DNA of 64,000 nt, taken from positions 360,676 through 424,675 of the forward strand of contig NZ_LMUO01000006.1 in assembly GCF_009765905.1 (NCBI RefSeq), in the 5' to 3' direction. The notes below the pieces were generated by a model that saw nothing but the letters and a program-made list of their open reading frames with translations, searched no databases and was not told where the DNA came from. The DNA comes from Mucilaginibacter sp. L196. Its GTDB lineage: Bacteria; Bacteroidota; Bacteroidia; Sphingobacteriales; Sphingobacteriaceae. Numbering within the stretch: position 1 is the stretch's first letter; each line of letters opens with the position of its first letter. The position numbers and the translations under genes were made by a program. This document shows, in pieces, positions 28,838 to 33,567 of this stretch.

Positions 28838-29608
28838 ATGAATATTTTAACGAAATTAAAATTACATATACGGCTTGCTTTGGTAGTTAGTTGCCTGTTA
28901 ATTACGGTCTCATCATTTGCGCAAACTTTAAAGGTTGCCGCGGCTGCTAACCTGCAATCAGTAATAAAAGTATTAGGGGCTGATTTTACCAAAAGAACAG
29001 GTGTTATTGTTGAGCCCATTGTAGGTTCATCGGGCAACTTAACCACCCAGATAAGTAACGGCGCCCCCTTTGATGTTTTTTTATCTGCCGATATGGATTT
29101 CCCGCAGAAATTATACACTAGTGGATTTGCCTCTAAAAAGCCTGTTGTTTACGCAAAAGGGAGTTTAATTATTTGCAGTAATAAGGATATTGAGTTTGAT
29201 AACTGGGAACGCATGCTACTTACCCCGGCCATTAAAAAGGTAGCTATTGCCAACCCGACAATCGCGCCATACGGCAAAGCCGCCACTGAAACATTAAAGT
29301 TAAAAGGTATTTTGAGCGAGATACAAAGCAAAATCGTTATAGGTGAAAGTATATCGCAGGTGAACACTTATATCACCACAGGTTCGGTTGATGTTGGTTT
29401 TACTACCCAGGCTTTGGTAAAGGATATTGAAGGCAAGCAAAAAATTTATTGGAGAGCAATCGACCCAAAAACCTACTCGCCTATTGAACAGGGAATTGTG
29501 GTATTAAAACATGGCGAGGCCAACCCTAACGCCGAGAAATTTTATCAGTTTATTTTGAGTGCTGATGCCAAACGCACATTTAAGGAATATGGCTATATTG
29601 TAGAGTAA
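28838..29608 (+). CDS. modA: molybdate ABC transporter substrate-binding protein
   Basis: A 256-residue periplasmic protein with a signal peptide cut near SSFAQ. The body follows the ModA pattern: LKVAAAANLQSVIKVLGADF at the N-terminus, GSSGNLTTQISNGAPFDVFLSADMDFP in the oxyanion-binding region, and ANPTIAPYGKAATETL. It captures molybdate (or tungstate) for the ModBC transporter. It is first in a rightward operon; the modB ATG starts directly after its stop codon. Confidence 0.93.
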   Translation: MNILTKLKLHIRLALVVSCLLITVSSFAQTLKVAAAANLQSVIKVLGADFTKRTGVIVEPIVGSSGNLTTQISNGAPFDVFLSADMDFPQKLYTSGFASKKPVVYAKGSLIICSNKDIEFDNWERMLLTPAIKKVAIANPTIAPYGKAATETLKLKGILSEIQSKIVIGESISQVNTYITTGSVDVGFTTQALVKDIEGKQKIYWRAIDPKTYSPIEQGIVVLKHGEANPNAEKFYQFILSADAKRTFKEYGYIVE

Positions 29609-30280
29609 ATGGATTTAACCCCAATTTGGCTCACACTAAAGCTGGCATGCATTACTACGCTAATTTTGCTTGCTATTTGCCTGCCGCTGGCGTGGTGGTT
29701 ATCCAAAGGACGCTCGTTCTTCAAGATCATTATCGAGGCTATTATAACCATGCCTTTGGTTTTGCCGCCATCGGTATTGGGGTTTTATTTGTTGCTGGCG
29801 TTTAGTCCGCAGCATGGGGTGGGCAAATGGTTGCATGACACATTTGACCTGCAGTTTGTATTCTCTTTCCAGGGATTGGTGCTGGCATCTGTTATTTACA
29901 GCATGCCGTTTATGATGGGGCCTATAAAATCAGCATTACAGCAACTACCGGCATCATTATCACAAGCATCCTACACCCTGGGTAAAAGCGAACGCGAAAC
30001 TTTTCTCCGGGTACTGCTGCCTAATATAAAACCATCATTATTCACGGCGATGGTGCTCACATTCGCGCACACATTAGGCGAATTTGGTGTGGTGCTGATG
30101 ATCGGTGGAAACATCCCAAATGTTACACGGGTAGCATCCATTGCGGTTTATGATTCGGTAGAGAATATGGATTATTCGGCGGCCAATACGTACTCGCTTA
30201 TCTTATTTTGCATTACTTTTATTTTAGTGATCGGTGTATTCATCTTCAACAAAACACAAGCTAAAAGTCCGCTGGAATGA
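29609..30280 (+). CDS. modB: molybdate ABC transporter permease
   Basis: A 223-residue inner-membrane permease with five or six helices. The EAA-type coupling loop is LSQASYTLGKSERETFLRVLLPNIKPSLFTAMVL, followed by FAHTLGEFGVVLMIGGNIPNVTRVAS, which is highly typical of ModB. It abuts modA and overlaps modC by four bases (ATGA), a translational-coupling arrangement. Length is usual for the family. Confidence 0.93.
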   Translation: MDLTPIWLTLKLACITTLILLAICLPLAWWLSKGRSFFKIIIEAIITMPLVLPPSVLGFYLLLAFSPQHGVGKWLHDTFDLQFVFSFQGLVLASVIYSMPFMMGPIKSALQQLPASLSQASYTLGKSERETFLRVLLPNIKPSLFTAMVLTFAHTLGEFGVVLMIGGNIPNVTRVASIAVYDSVENMDYSAANTYSLILFCITFILVIGVFIFNKTQAKSPLE

Positions 30281-30903
30281 TCATCATCAACATTGAAAAA
30301 AAACTGAAGGCCTACAGCGGGCAGCAATGGTTAAAGGTAAACCGGGAGTTTGCTAATGGCAGTATCATCAAAATTCACGGACCATCCGGCGCGGGAAAAA
30401 CAACGCTTTTGAAAATCATTGCTGGACTGGTAACTCCCGAAAAAGGTATTATTAAAGTTGATGGCATTACCTGGTTGGACGCATCCACCAAAACAACGCT
30501 ATCGCCGCAAAAAAGAATGGTTGGTTTTGTATTTCAAAACTATGCGCTGTTCCCAAACATGACGGTGCGCGAGCATTTGGAATATGCCACAAAGGATGTA
30601 GAATGGATCGATCGCTTGTTAAAGATTGGTAAATTAGAAACGCTAACCACGCATAAACCAGAACACCTATCCGGCGGGCAACAGCAGCGTTTAGCCATCC
30701 TGCGTGCGTTGGCTATCAAACCTAAATTATTGTTGATGGATGAACCTTTCTCAGCACTCGATCATGAGATGAAAATGGTTCTGATTAGCGAGCTAAAGGT
30801 TTTATTTACGGAATTAGGATTGACTGTTTTGATTGTAACTCATAATCCTCAGGAGTTGGAGGGGTTGTGCGATGGGGAGTTGGACATAGATACGGAGCGA
30901 TAA
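30277..30903 (+). CDS. modC: molybdate ABC transporter ATP-binding protein (short form)
   Basis: A 208-residue ATPase. Walker A GPSGAGKTT is at residues 35-43, the Q-loop in FVFQNYALFP, the signature LSGGQQQRLAILRAL mid-protein, Walker B LLLMDEPFSALD, and the switch His in VTHNPQE. It lacks the C-terminal molybdate-binding MOP domain found in the about 350-residue E. coli ModC, so ATP hydrolysis is probably not feedback-regulated by that domain here. It overlaps modB by four bases. Confidence 0.9.
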   Translation: MIIINIEKKLKAYSGQQWLKVNREFANGSIIKIHGPSGAGKTTLLKIIAGLVTPEKGIIKVDGITWLDASTKTTLSPQKRMVGFVFQNYALFPNMTVREHLEYATKDVEWIDRLLKIGKLETLTTHKPEHLSGGQQQRLAILRALAIKPKLLLMDEPFSALDHEMKMVLISELKVLFTELGLTVLIVTHNPQELEGLCDGELDIDTER

Positions 30904-30913
30904 CTTTTCTAAT

Positions 30914-30997
30914 TGTCATTGCGAGGAACGAAGCAATCGCACATAAGCAGAACCGCTCTGTATTGTTTGCGATTGCTTCGCTGCGCTCAGAATGACA
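30914..30997. repeat. palindromic interspersed repeat, hybrid of families A and B
   Basis: The left arm is family A (TGTCATTGCGAGGAACGAAG). The right arm reads GATTGCTTCGCTGCGCTCAG then AATGACA, so its outer part is of the GCTCAGAATGACA type seen at 33561. Lies between convergent modC and the peroxiredoxin-like gene. Confidence 0.75.
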
Positions 30998-31013: not shown

Positions 31014-31595
31014 TTAATTCAACGCTTCCAACAAATCACTAACCGGTGGGCGTTTAGTATAATCTTTATCAACGTGAGCGTAAATAATTTTGCCCGAGCG
31101 ATCAATTATATAAGTTGCCGGTACTGGCAAAACGTGATCTGTATTACCATTATTCTTTTCCAGATCGACCCCATAATTTTTTAGTTTGGCCAGCATGGCG
31201 CCATCAACCACATAATTAACCTGGTAAGCTTTCATAATGGTATAGTTCTTGTCTTGAATGATAGAGAACGAGGCGTGCGTTTTATCAATTGTTTTGTTGA
31301 TATTCTCACCTGTTTCAGGAGTAACACCAATAACATAAGCACCTTTTGCCGTTAATAGCTGCAATGAATCTTGCAAATGGCTAATCTGTTTGTTACAATA
31401 CGGGCACCATTGTCCGCGATAAAAAAACAGCACCACGGCTTTATGCTTTTTTAATAATGCTTTAAGATTAAGGGCTTTCCCCGTGTTATCAACCGCTGTA
31501 AATGCAGGGGCAGTTTCACCTTTTTTTAAACCTGTTTGGGCTACTGCGTTTAAACAGAGAAATGTAGTAACAGCAATTAGTAATATTTTTTTCAT
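31014..31595 (-). CDS. exported peroxiredoxin-like thiol-disulfide protein
   Basis: A 193-residue AhpC/TSA-type thioredoxin-fold protein with a signal peptide (MKKILLIAVTTFLCLNAVAQ). The active site is FFYRGQWCPYCNKQISHLQ, with a CPYC pair rather than a single peroxidatic Cys. VIGVTPETGENI and ATYIIDRSGKIIYAHVD follow. It probably reduces peroxides or disulfides in the periplasm. A promoter matching those of the neighbouring ECF sigma gene and KMS gene lies at 31614-31639, so it appears to belong to that regulon. Confidence 0.82.
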   Translation of the reverse strand: MKKILLIAVTTFLCLNAVAQTGLKKGETAPAFTAVDNTGKALNLKALLKKHKAVVLFFYRGQWCPYCNKQISHLQDSLQLLTAKGAYVIGVTPETGENINKTIDKTHASFSIIQDKNYTIMKAYQVNYVVDGAMLAKLKNYGVDLEKNNGNTDHVLPVPATYIIDRSGKIIYAHVDKDYTKRPPVSDLLEALN

Positions 31596-31613
31596 AAAGA
31601 TTTTTATTACTTA

Positions 31614-31639
31614 GTCGGATATAACTTTGTACCCTTACA
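31614..31639 (-). promoter_or_regulatory. ECF-type promoter of the peroxiredoxin-like gene
   Basis: On the minus strand TGTAAGG, exactly 14 bases, then CCGAC. The CCGAC ends 19 bases before the ATG at 31595. The spacing and both boxes are identical to those at 32508-32533 and 33429-33454. Confidence 0.75.
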
Positions 31640-31647
31640 GATTAAGT

Positions 31648-32157
31648 TTACTCCGCGATACTCACCACAATTTTATCCAGATTATGCAAGTACCTTCTTC
31701 CGGTTTTATAATCGAGCATGGACACCATTTGGATACTGCTGGTTAGCTGATCGGCTTTTATACCATTCTTCTCCATCACAATATATACGTTATCCCCTAT
31801 TTCGGTATTGAACAACTCATTCCACGAATAAACAACTTTATAGCCATCGGCTCCCACGCAGGTAAAATACATGCTACTGAATAAATGCGGCGTAAGCAAC
31901 CATTGCGAATGGTTCAGAATATCTTTCAGTAAAACTCCTTTTAGTTGATCATCCTGGTGTTTAAAAGCCCCGGTATGATCAGTAACTTTAATATTCCCAA
32001 TGGTTTTTAGCGGATAGCTGTTCAAAGAATCCATTGTAATAATAGATCCTACTTTAACCTTGCCGACTATAGCAAACTCATGGGTCTGGGTATTGGTTTG
32101 TTGTGCAAACGTTGCAGTAGAGCTGCATAACAAGAATAAAACAAGTAATTTTTTCAT
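31648..32157 (-). CDS. exported molybdopterin-oxidoreductase-fold protein (truncated sulfite-oxidase-like)
   Basis: A 169-residue protein from the Met at 32157, where a clear signal peptide begins (MKKLLVLFLLCSSTATFAQ). GVLLKDILNHSQWLL and FTCVGADGYKVVYSWNELFN resemble the C-terminal half of the sulfite-oxidase type molybdopterin-binding domain, where VGADGY is characteristic. It is much shorter than an enzyme of that family, and I do not see the catalytic Cys loop, so it is more likely a binding or accessory protein. Its position beside modABC and within the ECF cluster fits a link to molybdenum cofactor or redox stress. This is tentative. Confidence 0.55.
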   Translation of the reverse strand: MKKLLVLFLLCSSTATFAQQTNTQTHEFAIVGKVKVGSIITMDSLNSYPLKTIGNIKVTDHTGAFKHQDDQLKGVLLKDILNHSQWLLTPHLFSSMYFTCVGADGYKVVYSWNELFNTEIGDNVYIVMEKNGIKADQLTSSIQMVSMLDYKTGRRYLHNLDKIVVSIAE

Positions 32158-32212
32158 ACGTGATGTGGATTGCAATCAGGGAGATGATCACAAATATAAA
32201 ATAAAGAGGGGG

Positions 32213-32240
32213 AATTAATCCACCCTCTTCATCTTTAAAC
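32213..32240 (-). terminator. probable terminator after the KMS-repeat gene
   Basis: On the minus strand AGAGGG, a 12-base loop and CCCTCT are followed by TTATTTTAT. It lies about 10 bp past the stop at 32249. Read-through may still feed the molybdopterin-fold gene, which has no ECF-type promoter of its own. Confidence 0.6.
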
Positions 32241-32248
32241 AACAACCC

Positions 32249-32476
32249 TTACATTTTCGACATTTTTGAGCTATCCTTACTCATTTTGCTCATCTTGTCC
32301 ATTTTTTTAGCTTTCATTTTCGAAGGCTTGCTCATTTTGCTCATCTTACTCATTTTGCCAGTATCGCTAGCAGCAACTGTATGTACTGCCGATGCGTTAG
32401 CATTGATAGTTAAACAAAGTGATAAAATTGCCATAGCGGCTACTGATAATAATGATTTTTTTACGTTGATTTTCAT
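32249..32476 (-). CDS. secreted Lys-Met-Ser repeat protein
   Basis: A 75-residue protein starting at 32476 (MKINVKKSLLSVAAMAIL), with a signal peptide cut near NANA. The mature part is almost only Lys, Met and Ser in units KMSKMSKPSKMKAKKMDKMS, ending KMSKM. The longer reading from 32518 is excluded because it would begin upstream of the -10 box. It resembles the low-complexity secreted proteins annotated as pentapeptide MXKDX repeat proteins. Met-rich sequences can bind copper(I), so a metal- or oxidant-scavenging role is possible but not shown. It is driven by its own ECF-type promoter. Confidence 0.7.
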   Translation of the reverse strand: MKINVKKSLLSVAAMAILSLCLTINANASAVHTVAASDTGKMSKMSKMSKPSKMKAKKMDKMSKMSKDSSKMSKM

Positions 32477-32507
32477 GTGTGTTTTTATTTTGATATTCAC
32501 ACATTTA

Positions 32508-32533
32508 GTCGGCCTCAACTTACGAACCTTACA
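32508..32533 (-). promoter_or_regulatory. ECF-type promoter of the KMS-repeat gene
   Basis: On the minus strand TGTAAGG-N14-CCGAC, the same boxes and spacing as at the sigma gene and the peroxiredoxin gene. The -10 box lies 32 bases upstream of the ATG at 32476. Confidence 0.75.
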
Positions 32534-32539
32534 GTTTAT

Positions 32540-32815
32540 TTAATTTTTATTTAGTTCGATCTCGATACGCTCCTGCAATTCCTTTTTAAAGCTATCGTCT
32601 AATTTAACTTCACCCGGCATCGAGCTTTTAAAAAGCTGGCGAACCATATCATTTATAATACGGCTTTGTTTGCCATATATACGGCAAACCGAGCAGCCCA
32701 TCAGGTGTATGCGCAGTTCTATATGCTCGCGAAAAGTAATACGACTCAACATTTTCTTTTCGATTAGAAATGTGGCCTTCTTACAATTGTACTGTATCTT
32801 TTTTAACTGGCTCAT
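32540..32815 (-). CDS. zinc-finger anti-sigma factor
   Basis: A 91-residue cytoplasmic protein with the ZAS-type motif HLMGCSVCRIYGKQS (His-x3-Cys-x2-Cys), preceded by Cys11 in IQYNCKKATFLIEKK. This is the layout of small zf-HC2 anti-sigma factors that hold an ECF sigma factor until a signal releases it. It has no membrane helix, so it is soluble, and redox change at the Cys/Zn site is a plausible trigger. It follows the sigma gene by 10 bp, as expected for a cognate pair. Confidence 0.85.
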   Translation of the reverse strand: MSQLKKIQYNCKKATFLIEKKMLSRITFREHIELRIHLMGCSVCRIYGKQSRIINDMVRQLFKSSMPGEVKLDDSFKKELQERIEIELNKN

Positions 32816-32825
32816 AGCTTAAAAT

Positions 32826-33395
32826 TTATTCCCAATTCCGTTGAAGGCACGCCCGCAGATTAAGCTTGGTACGATGAATAATTACCCAAAAATTTGATGG
32901 GGTAACCTTTAATTCCGAACATATCAGTGTGGTATCAGCATCATCTATATGTTTCATGGTGAAAACCGCCATCCATAACGCCGGTAGCTTTTGTAAACAC
33001 ATTTGCAGTATGCTATTAAACTCCTTATTGCCCAGGTGATCCACATCTTCTATTCCGAAAATCTGTGGTGCATGTGCTGATCGCCAATGGCCATCAGCTT
33101 GATCAAAAAAATCTTCCTGTTCATGCTCTGCTACCTCAGTTTCTTTCCTTAACCCTGAAGACTTTTTGCGATAAACGTCGATTATCTTATTTTTCAGGAT
33201 GGCGGTTAACCAGGTACGCTCGGAACTTTTGCCTTCAAATCGGTCTACTTTTTCTAAGGCCGCTAAAAAGGTTTCCTGCACCAGATCTTTAGCCTGTTCT
33301 TCGTCAGCAATTCGTTTTATGGTATAGGCATACAAGTAATCGGCATGCGATTTTACCCAGGTATGCGGATCTAATTGATTGCTTTCGGCGCTCAT
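32826..33395 (-). CDS. ECF RNA polymerase sigma factor
   Basis: A 189-residue sigma-70 family protein. Region 2 covers about residues 10-80: YLYAYTIKRIADEEQAKDLVQETFLAAL and FEGKSSERTWLTAILKNKIIDVYRK. Region 4 covers about 125-185: LQKLPALWMAVFTMKHIDD and the helix-turn-helix SELKVTPSNFWVIIHRTKLNLR. The linker is acidic and long for an ECF factor. It is first in an operon with its anti-sigma factor. The promoter at 33429-33454 matches two other promoters downstream, so it probably activates its own transcription. Confidence 0.93.
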   Translation of the reverse strand: MSAESNQLDPHTWVKSHADYLYAYTIKRIADEEQAKDLVQETFLAALEKVDRFEGKSSERTWLTAILKNKIIDVYRKKSSGLRKETEVAEHEQEDFFDQADGHWRSAHAPQIFGIEDVDHLGNKEFNSILQMCLQKLPALWMAVFTMKHIDDADTTLICSELKVTPSNFWVIIHRTKLNLRACLQRNWE

Positions 33396-33428
33396 TTAAT
33401 TTTAATCATAATGTTTTGATACTGCTTG

Positions 33429-33454
33429 GTCGGCAAACGGATCAAAACCTTACA
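33429..33454 (-). promoter_or_regulatory. ECF-type promoter of the sigma-anti-sigma operon
   Basis: On the minus strand TGTAAGG, 14 bases, CCGAC. The -10 box ends 34 bases before the ATG at 33395. Its identity with the promoters at 31614 and 32508 supports autoregulation. Confidence 0.75.
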
Positions 33455-33492: not shown

Positions 33493-33567
33493 TGTCATTC
33501 TGAGCACAGCGAAGAATCTGTAAAGTAGTTTACACCGTACAGATTCTTCGCTCCGCTCAGAATGACA
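33493..33567. repeat. palindromic interspersed repeat (TGTCATTCTGAGCACAGCGA type)
   Basis: Arms TGTCATTCTGAGCACAGCGA and CGCTCAGAATGACA pair around AGAATCTGTAAAGTAG/TACAGATTCT. Related in design to families A and B. It sits between the sigma operon's promoter and the hydrolase gene's 3' end. Confidence 0.8.

Follow-up and report, generated by a model that had tools for sequence, protein, structure and literature searches.

The window analysed here, a 64-kb stretch (64,000 nucleotides) of the Mucilaginibacter sp. L196 genome, contains on its minus strand a cluster in the order box, ECF sigma factor gene, anti-sigma gene, box, KMS gene, gene of a SUOX-fold protein, box, redoxin gene, where box denotes the two-part element TGTAAGG-N14-CCGAC. 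The sigma gene (32826..33395, minus strand) codes for a polypeptide of 189 aa (Sigma70_r2, 6e-16; sigma70-ECF, 5e-22), for which the nearest model was TIGR02943, with a score just under its cut-off. It is followed by the gene (32540..32815, minus strand) of a soluble, zinc-type anti-sigma factor of 91 aa (antisigmaE, 2.7e-11, below cut-off) with the residues C11, H37, C41 and C44. The KMS gene (32249..32476, minus strand) encodes a Met-rich protein of 75 aa with KMS repeats, predicted to be secreted and recognized by its composition (15% Met, 21% Lys) and by the box in front of it. Searches with this protein in Pfam and NCBIfam gave no family match beyond two chance-level hits, and none to the MXKDX Met-rich peptides (BcrX/MrpX).

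The next gene (31648..32157, minus strand) codes for a predicted secreted protein of 169 aa. Sequence searches gave neither a family nor a solved structure for it, and the SUOX fold was assigned from a structure model (pLDDT 84) and a fold search, which matched sulfite dehydrogenase, YedY and the small pterin-binding PruR proteins. C100 of this protein is conserved in at least 90% of 34 sequences, and in two relatives (G057 and G085) the gene has a box of its own. The last gene (31014..31595, minus strand) encodes an AhpC/TSA-type redoxin of 193 aa with a CPYC motif, also predicted to be secreted (AhpC-TSA, 4.7e-28). Genes of a modABC-like transporter (SBP_bac_11, BPD_transp_1 and ABC_tran; 28838-30903, plus strand) are convergent to the redoxin gene and lie near that of the SUOX-fold protein; a link to molybdenum is possible. 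The cluster is flanked on either side by two related hairpin-like inverted repeats (33493-33567 and 30920-30997), which resemble small mobile or repeated elements.

The initial annotation had described three exact boxes with a 14-base spacing on the minus strand, and all three were recovered by a scan of the window, at 33429-33454, 32508-32533 and 31614-31639. The distance between the last base of CCGAC and the ATG is 33 bases for the sigma gene (ATG at 33395), 31 bases for the KMS gene (32476) and 18 bases for the redoxin gene (31595). No fourth match was found in the window even when up to two mismatches were allowed, a level at which about 2.6 are expected by chance; for the 12 exact bases the calculated expectation is about 0.008 per 64-kb window. 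The fuller form of the box is TGTAAGG-N15-CGACTAA, present in the predicted promoters of the KMS gene (32505..32533, minus strand) and of the redoxin gene (31611..31639, minus strand), and the predicted promoter of the sigma/anti-sigma operon (33426..33454, minus strand) has CGACCAA instead. A scan for sigma-70-type promoters yielded 10 against 9.3 expected.

In the complete genome (5,331,597 bases) TGTAAGG-N14-CCGAC occurs exactly six times and the reversed pattern, used as control, not at all, so the genome-wide search proposed in the initial annotation showed no sign of a motif common at random. With one mismatch allowed there were 18 matches and 20 in the control, indicating that for this pattern only near-perfect copies are informative. 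When the spacer before CGACTA was varied from N12 to N18, all six matches had N15 (two matches in the control). Outside the window a box precedes the gene of a DUF1223 protein by 27 bases, and boxes were found 137 bases before the ATG of MsrB and 129 bases before that of MsrA, the latter reading GCGAC where the others have CCGAC. Both Msr proteins start with lipoprotein-like signals, as judged from their sequence. A further box, ending in CGACTAT, lies inside birA and is followed by genes of a 151 aa DsbD_N protein and of a 570 aa DsbD. (MsrA, MsrB, DUF1223, DsbD_N and DsbD were identified by Pfam.) The regulon of this genome is thus predicted to comprise seven promoters, and the small regulon of three neighbouring genes proposed previously appears too narrow. 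Although msrB (L165) and msrA (L166) are unrelated genes, their leaders, about 130 bases from box to ATG, resemble each other almost throughout. They are possibly a duplicated or a regulatory leader. An Rfam search detected no family in them, the sole match above the gathering threshold being RNase P elsewhere in L166.

In 121 genomes of the family the form TGTAAGG-N15-CGACTAA was found 52 times, in 22 genomes, against eight control matches. Automatic classing of the genes behind these 52 exact boxes assigned 15 to the sigma factor, eight to DUF1223, seven to Met-rich proteins, four each to MsrB, MsrA and redoxin, two to a second type of redoxin, and one each to cytochrome b561 and DUF417 (46 classed in total). 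Two more boxes (L059 and L068) precede Met-rich peptides that the composition rule missed and that were judged by eye. With these two included, 48 of the 49 exact boxes in sigma-bearing genomes stand before a gene for the sigma factor, a Met-rich protein, DUF1223, MsrA, MsrB, redoxin, cytochrome b561 or DUF417. Four boxes of the family set were left over, one (L073) in a sigma-bearing genome and three (L019, L020 and L021) in genomes without the sigma factor. In 38 of the 46 classed cases the start codon lies 7-55 bases past the box. Two of the arrangements contain additional genes: in G013 the box is followed by DUF417 (matching RclC weakly, at 2.7e-14 and well under the cut-off) and an MsrAB fusion, and in G032 by cytochrome b561 and an Oxidored_molyb protein, whose best NCBIfam match was MsrP, below cut-off.

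Boxes with one mismatch numbered 108 in 23 sigma-bearing genomes against 45 in the control, so many of them are due to chance. Of 63 unique one-mismatch strings in the loci collected, 41 could be classed: sigma factor 8, DsbD_N 7, DUF1223 5, MsrB 4, MsrA 3, Met-rich 3, HYC_CC_PP 3, SUOX-fold 2, second-type redoxin 2, spondin-domain 2, cytochrome b561 1 and anti-sigma 1, the last being a coding coincidence within the sigma gene that was counted among the 41. At L126 (G069), L115 (G101) and L120 (G104), one-mismatch boxes precede genes of spondin-domain proteins, in two genomes, and of a secreted protein of 140 aa that matched no family. The exact and one-mismatch regulon boxes collected (87) mostly have W, T, T after TGTAAGG and mostly CGACTAA as the -10 part, with CGAC in 85 of 87.

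If the boxes are read by the ECF factor encoded in the cluster, as the initial annotation suggested, box and sigma gene should occur together. In the family set the sigma factor (E 1e-30) was present in 19 of the 22 genomes with a box and in 13 of the 99 without (Fisher 5e-11). Among 120 genomes of the genus, TGTAAGG-N15-CGACTA gave 350 matches, spread over 85 genomes, and the control gave 22; the box was present in 84 of the 92 sigma-bearing genomes (E 1e-40), eight having no exact copy, and in one of the 28 sigma-less ones (Fisher 1e-18; eight of the sigma-less genomes were assigned by comparing the list of sigma matches with that of boxes). The counts of exact copies and controls in the own genome, the family and the genus rule out a chance motif. 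Since these genomes are related, a tree of 56 of them was built (28 with and 28 without the sigma factor), in which four to seven independent pairs agreed on the tie between box and sigma gene and none disagreed (median p 0.03).

The position of the boxes is in line with this. Upstream of 30 of the 34 sigma matches in the family, the best candidate box agreed at 14 of 14 bases in 15 cases, 13 of 14 in eight, 12 of 14 in two, and at most 10 of 14 in five, which thus have no good box. At least 13 of 14 bases were thus matched before 23 of these 30 orthologues, which together with the co-occurrence in the genus supports recognition by the encoded factor. In a comparison of 80 named sigma loci, at 52% identity or above, at least 13 of 14 bases were present in 24 of 27 loci (Mucilaginibacter, Pedobacter, Chitinophaga, Dyadobacter and MAGs; in the Dyadobacter loci the spacing is one base shorter), and below 52%, 14 of 14 were present in one and 12 of 14 in three of 53 loci. 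In two distant box-less relatives (L264 and L291) the sigma gene still has those of MsrA and MsrB nearby, at no more than about 5 kb. The string TGTAAGG-N15-CGTC, often found about 450 bases inside the sigma gene of relatives below approximately 50% identity, was rejected as a promoter; it encodes the stretch C-K-E-L-x-I-T-x-S-N of sigma region 4.2 (translated by eye) and is a coding coincidence. G015, which does not have this sigma factor, contains one exact box (L019, 1500) 20 bases before a different ECF gene. L020 (G008) and L021 (G055), both at 1500 and from one group of small genomes without the sigma factor, share an exact box together with the sequence around it, but no clear gene follows. 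Three or four matches to the sigma factor are present in certain members of the genus (G146, G170, G150, G165 and G193), a sign that the module may have been duplicated or have spread.

The box inside birA overlaps codons for V-R-x5-R-L-Y. It was exact in 15 of 28 sigma-bearing and in one of 28 sigma-less genomes (Fisher 5e-5; four loci without a readable birA, two per set, were left out). All 18 sigma-bearing loci encoding V-R-x5-R-L use AGG for the first Arg, and 17 each use CGA for the second Arg and CTA for the Leu, whereas in 25 ORFs of the window AGG and CGA make up 18% and 3% of Arg codons and CTA 8% of Leu codons. Four sigma-less loci with the same residues have AGG in three, CGA in two and CTA in three. 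When relatedness was controlled for this site alone, two to four pairs agreed and none was against (median p 0.25, not significant). The codon choice and distribution are suggestive of a promoter of the DsbD operon located within birA.

The anti-sigma gene, which the initial annotation had left out, adds a likely sensor to the picture. C11, H37, C41 and C44 did not vary among the 34 sequences aligned, which comprised the query plus 33 of 120 listed homologues. The N-terminal Cys was present in 30 of 30 anti-sigma factors adjoining sigma orthologues of the family, and it is the only independent residue in that set because the set was picked by an H-x3-C-x2-C rule. As described for RsrA, zinc is bound there by identically numbered residues (C11, H37, C41 and C44), and Cys11 makes the trigger disulphide with Cys41 or Cys44 (PMC4960319). 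Number and spacing of the ligands in the anti-sigma factor are those of the RsrA-type CHCC pattern, and it is a candidate redox sensor. A fold search with it gave no significant match (top row RsiW, E 2.4), and a sequence search retrieved no PDB chain of RsrA.

By promoter, anti-sigma layout and Msr targets the system most closely resembles sigma-E (NMB2144) of Neisseria meningitidis, which, as described, is autoregulated, has a small ZAS anti-sigma factor (NMB2145) encoded directly downstream and controls MsrA/MsrB (PMC2893595). The residues Cys4/His30/Cys34/Cys37 of NMB2145 are at the same relative positions as those of RsrA and of the anti-sigma factor described here (PMC2893595). The arrangement of an ECF sigma gene directly followed by that of a small ZAS anti-sigma factor, and predicted sharing of one box by sigma and Msr genes, are common to the present system and the Neisseria sigma-E/Haemophilus RpoE2 type. 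The Neisseria promoter (GTMAGBWTT, 12-13 bases, CGTCTAAH; PMC2893595) and the box (GTAAGGWTT, 12 bases, CGACTAA) agree in the -35 part and the spacing, and differ in one base of the -10 part (T in Neisseria, A in most of the boxes). Unlike here, MsrA/MsrB of Neisseria is encoded by a single gene and the sigma operon comprises six genes, and the text available on its sigma-E targets names no Met-rich peptide, DUF1223, DsbD or redoxin (PMC2893595). Haemophilus influenzae RpoE2/HrsE similarly combines an ECF sigma factor, a cytoplasmic small ZAS anti-sigma factor and an Msr target (MsrAB); its anti-sigma factor is 67 aa long, autoregulation is weak, and DUF1223, DsbD and methionine-rich are absent from the main text of the account (PMC7907618).

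Counterparts of the Met-rich peptide and the HOCl theme are found in the ECF16 systems, in which an ECF factor drives a methionine sulfoxide reductase system, a Met-rich peptide or both: Brucella BcrS/AbcS-BcrXQP, with its HOCl link (PMC8315932), Caulobacter SigF/NrsF (PMC3511200) and Azospira SigF/MrpX (as cited in these accounts). Membership in ECF16 was ruled out. The ECF16 anti-sigma factor is NrsF, a membrane protein of six helices, whereas no NrsF (DUF1109) domain was detected in the anti-sigma factor studied here, nor PF06532 in any of 41 genus genomes (the Caulobacter control was positive). The ECF16 promoter, given in the texts consulted as GTAA-N14-21-CGAA or GTAACC-N16-CGAA, has CGAA at -10, where the boxes have CGAC. 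As far as these texts describe them, ECF16 systems use MsrPQ; here the enzymes are MsrA and MsrB, and an MsrP-like pair is restricted to relatives, for example G032.

Taken together, the results make it probable, with a chance of roughly three in four, that the boxes are promoters of the adjoining ECF sigma factor and form one autoregulated regulon directed against the oxidation of methionine in envelope proteins. In reduced cells the soluble anti-sigma factor would hold the sigma factor by means of its zinc site (C11/H37/C41/C44). Oxidation to a disulphide would release zinc and sigma factor, and the latter would then transcribe the regulon along with its own operon. The Met-rich peptide could serve as a sacrificial, rechargeable sink for oxidants, MsrA and MsrB, with their lipoprotein-like signals, would reduce methionine sulfoxide of the peptide and of other envelope proteins, and DsbD, DUF1223 and redoxin might supply or use electrons. 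By analogy the most likely inducer is hypochlorous acid. In Haemophilus, rpoE2 expression was increased by HOCl and H2O2, and that of msrAB by HOCl in an RpoE2-dependent manner (PMC7907618). Another inducer is conceivable because Neisseria sigma-E was not induced by peroxide, diamide or singlet oxygen (PMC2893595) and because mutation of rpoE2 did not make Haemophilus more sensitive to killing by HOCl (PMC7907618). A more far-reaching version, to which we would give slightly less than an even chance, is that of a methionine-armour regulon of Bacteroidota, in which a switch and promoter like those of Neisseria sigma-E would be combined with an ECF16-like Met-rich peptide, and the promoter inside birA would couple DsbD to them, so that a bleach sink is fed with cytoplasmic electrons.

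The initial annotation had guessed at envelope redox or metal stress. The presence of MsrA, MsrB, DsbD and DUF1223 under the same box strengthens the redox half, and the metal half fared less well. A regulon against copper or other metals, in which Met repeats of the MxxM type bind Cu(I) and Msr, DsbD and redoxin mend metal-driven oxidation, is unlikely but deserves the first place among the alternatives. The Met repeats of the KMS protein are spaced like copper-binding Mets motifs. Genes of the HYC_CC_PP family are neighbours of copper genes, and in three genomes they stand behind one-mismatch boxes, although each of these boxes has a conserved base changed. In the comparable system of Caulobacter, sigma-F is described as responding to chromium and to cadmium (PMC3511200). 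Against this, no metal pump or regulator was found behind any of the 52 exact boxes of the family, and both main Msr types, DsbD and the DUF417 protein point to protein oxidation.

The residue pattern of the anti-sigma factor would also fit a general response to cytoplasmic thiol stress, of which the envelope genes are merely part, as in Streptomyces, where the zinc anti-sigma factor RsrA has the same C11, H37, C41 and C44 (PMC4960319). SigR/RsrA, however, is known as a system of cytoplasmic disulphide stress, whereas the recurring classes here are predicted envelope proteins and a cytoplasmic thioredoxin system was not assigned to any of the 52 exact boxes (judged on the listed classes and the visible sequences), which makes this explanation improbable. 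Least probable, and very much so, is that the box is read by another sigma factor or is the operator of another regulator: seven further genes of the own genome match the same sigma model weakly and the box in G015 precedes a different ECF gene, but the box is nearly absent where this sigma factor is missing, is built of two parts like an ECF promoter, resembles that of Neisseria sigma-E, and stands before the sigma gene itself.

No account of such a regulon in Bacteroidota appeared in listings of the open literature, which is weak evidence of absence; in the available text of one survey, only 6% of the ECF factors of Bacteroidetes are beside a class I anti-sigma domain (PMC7406223). The envelope methionine-oxidation regulon proposed here unites, in a soil bacterium, a sharp promoter with its likely sigma factor, a candidate sensor and a set of genes that has a clear theme. 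The box in birA may represent an ECF promoter that has been retained within protein-coding sequence. If the proposal is true, poorly known families (DUF1223, the KMS peptides and the small SUOX-fold proteins) would be tied to methionine repair.
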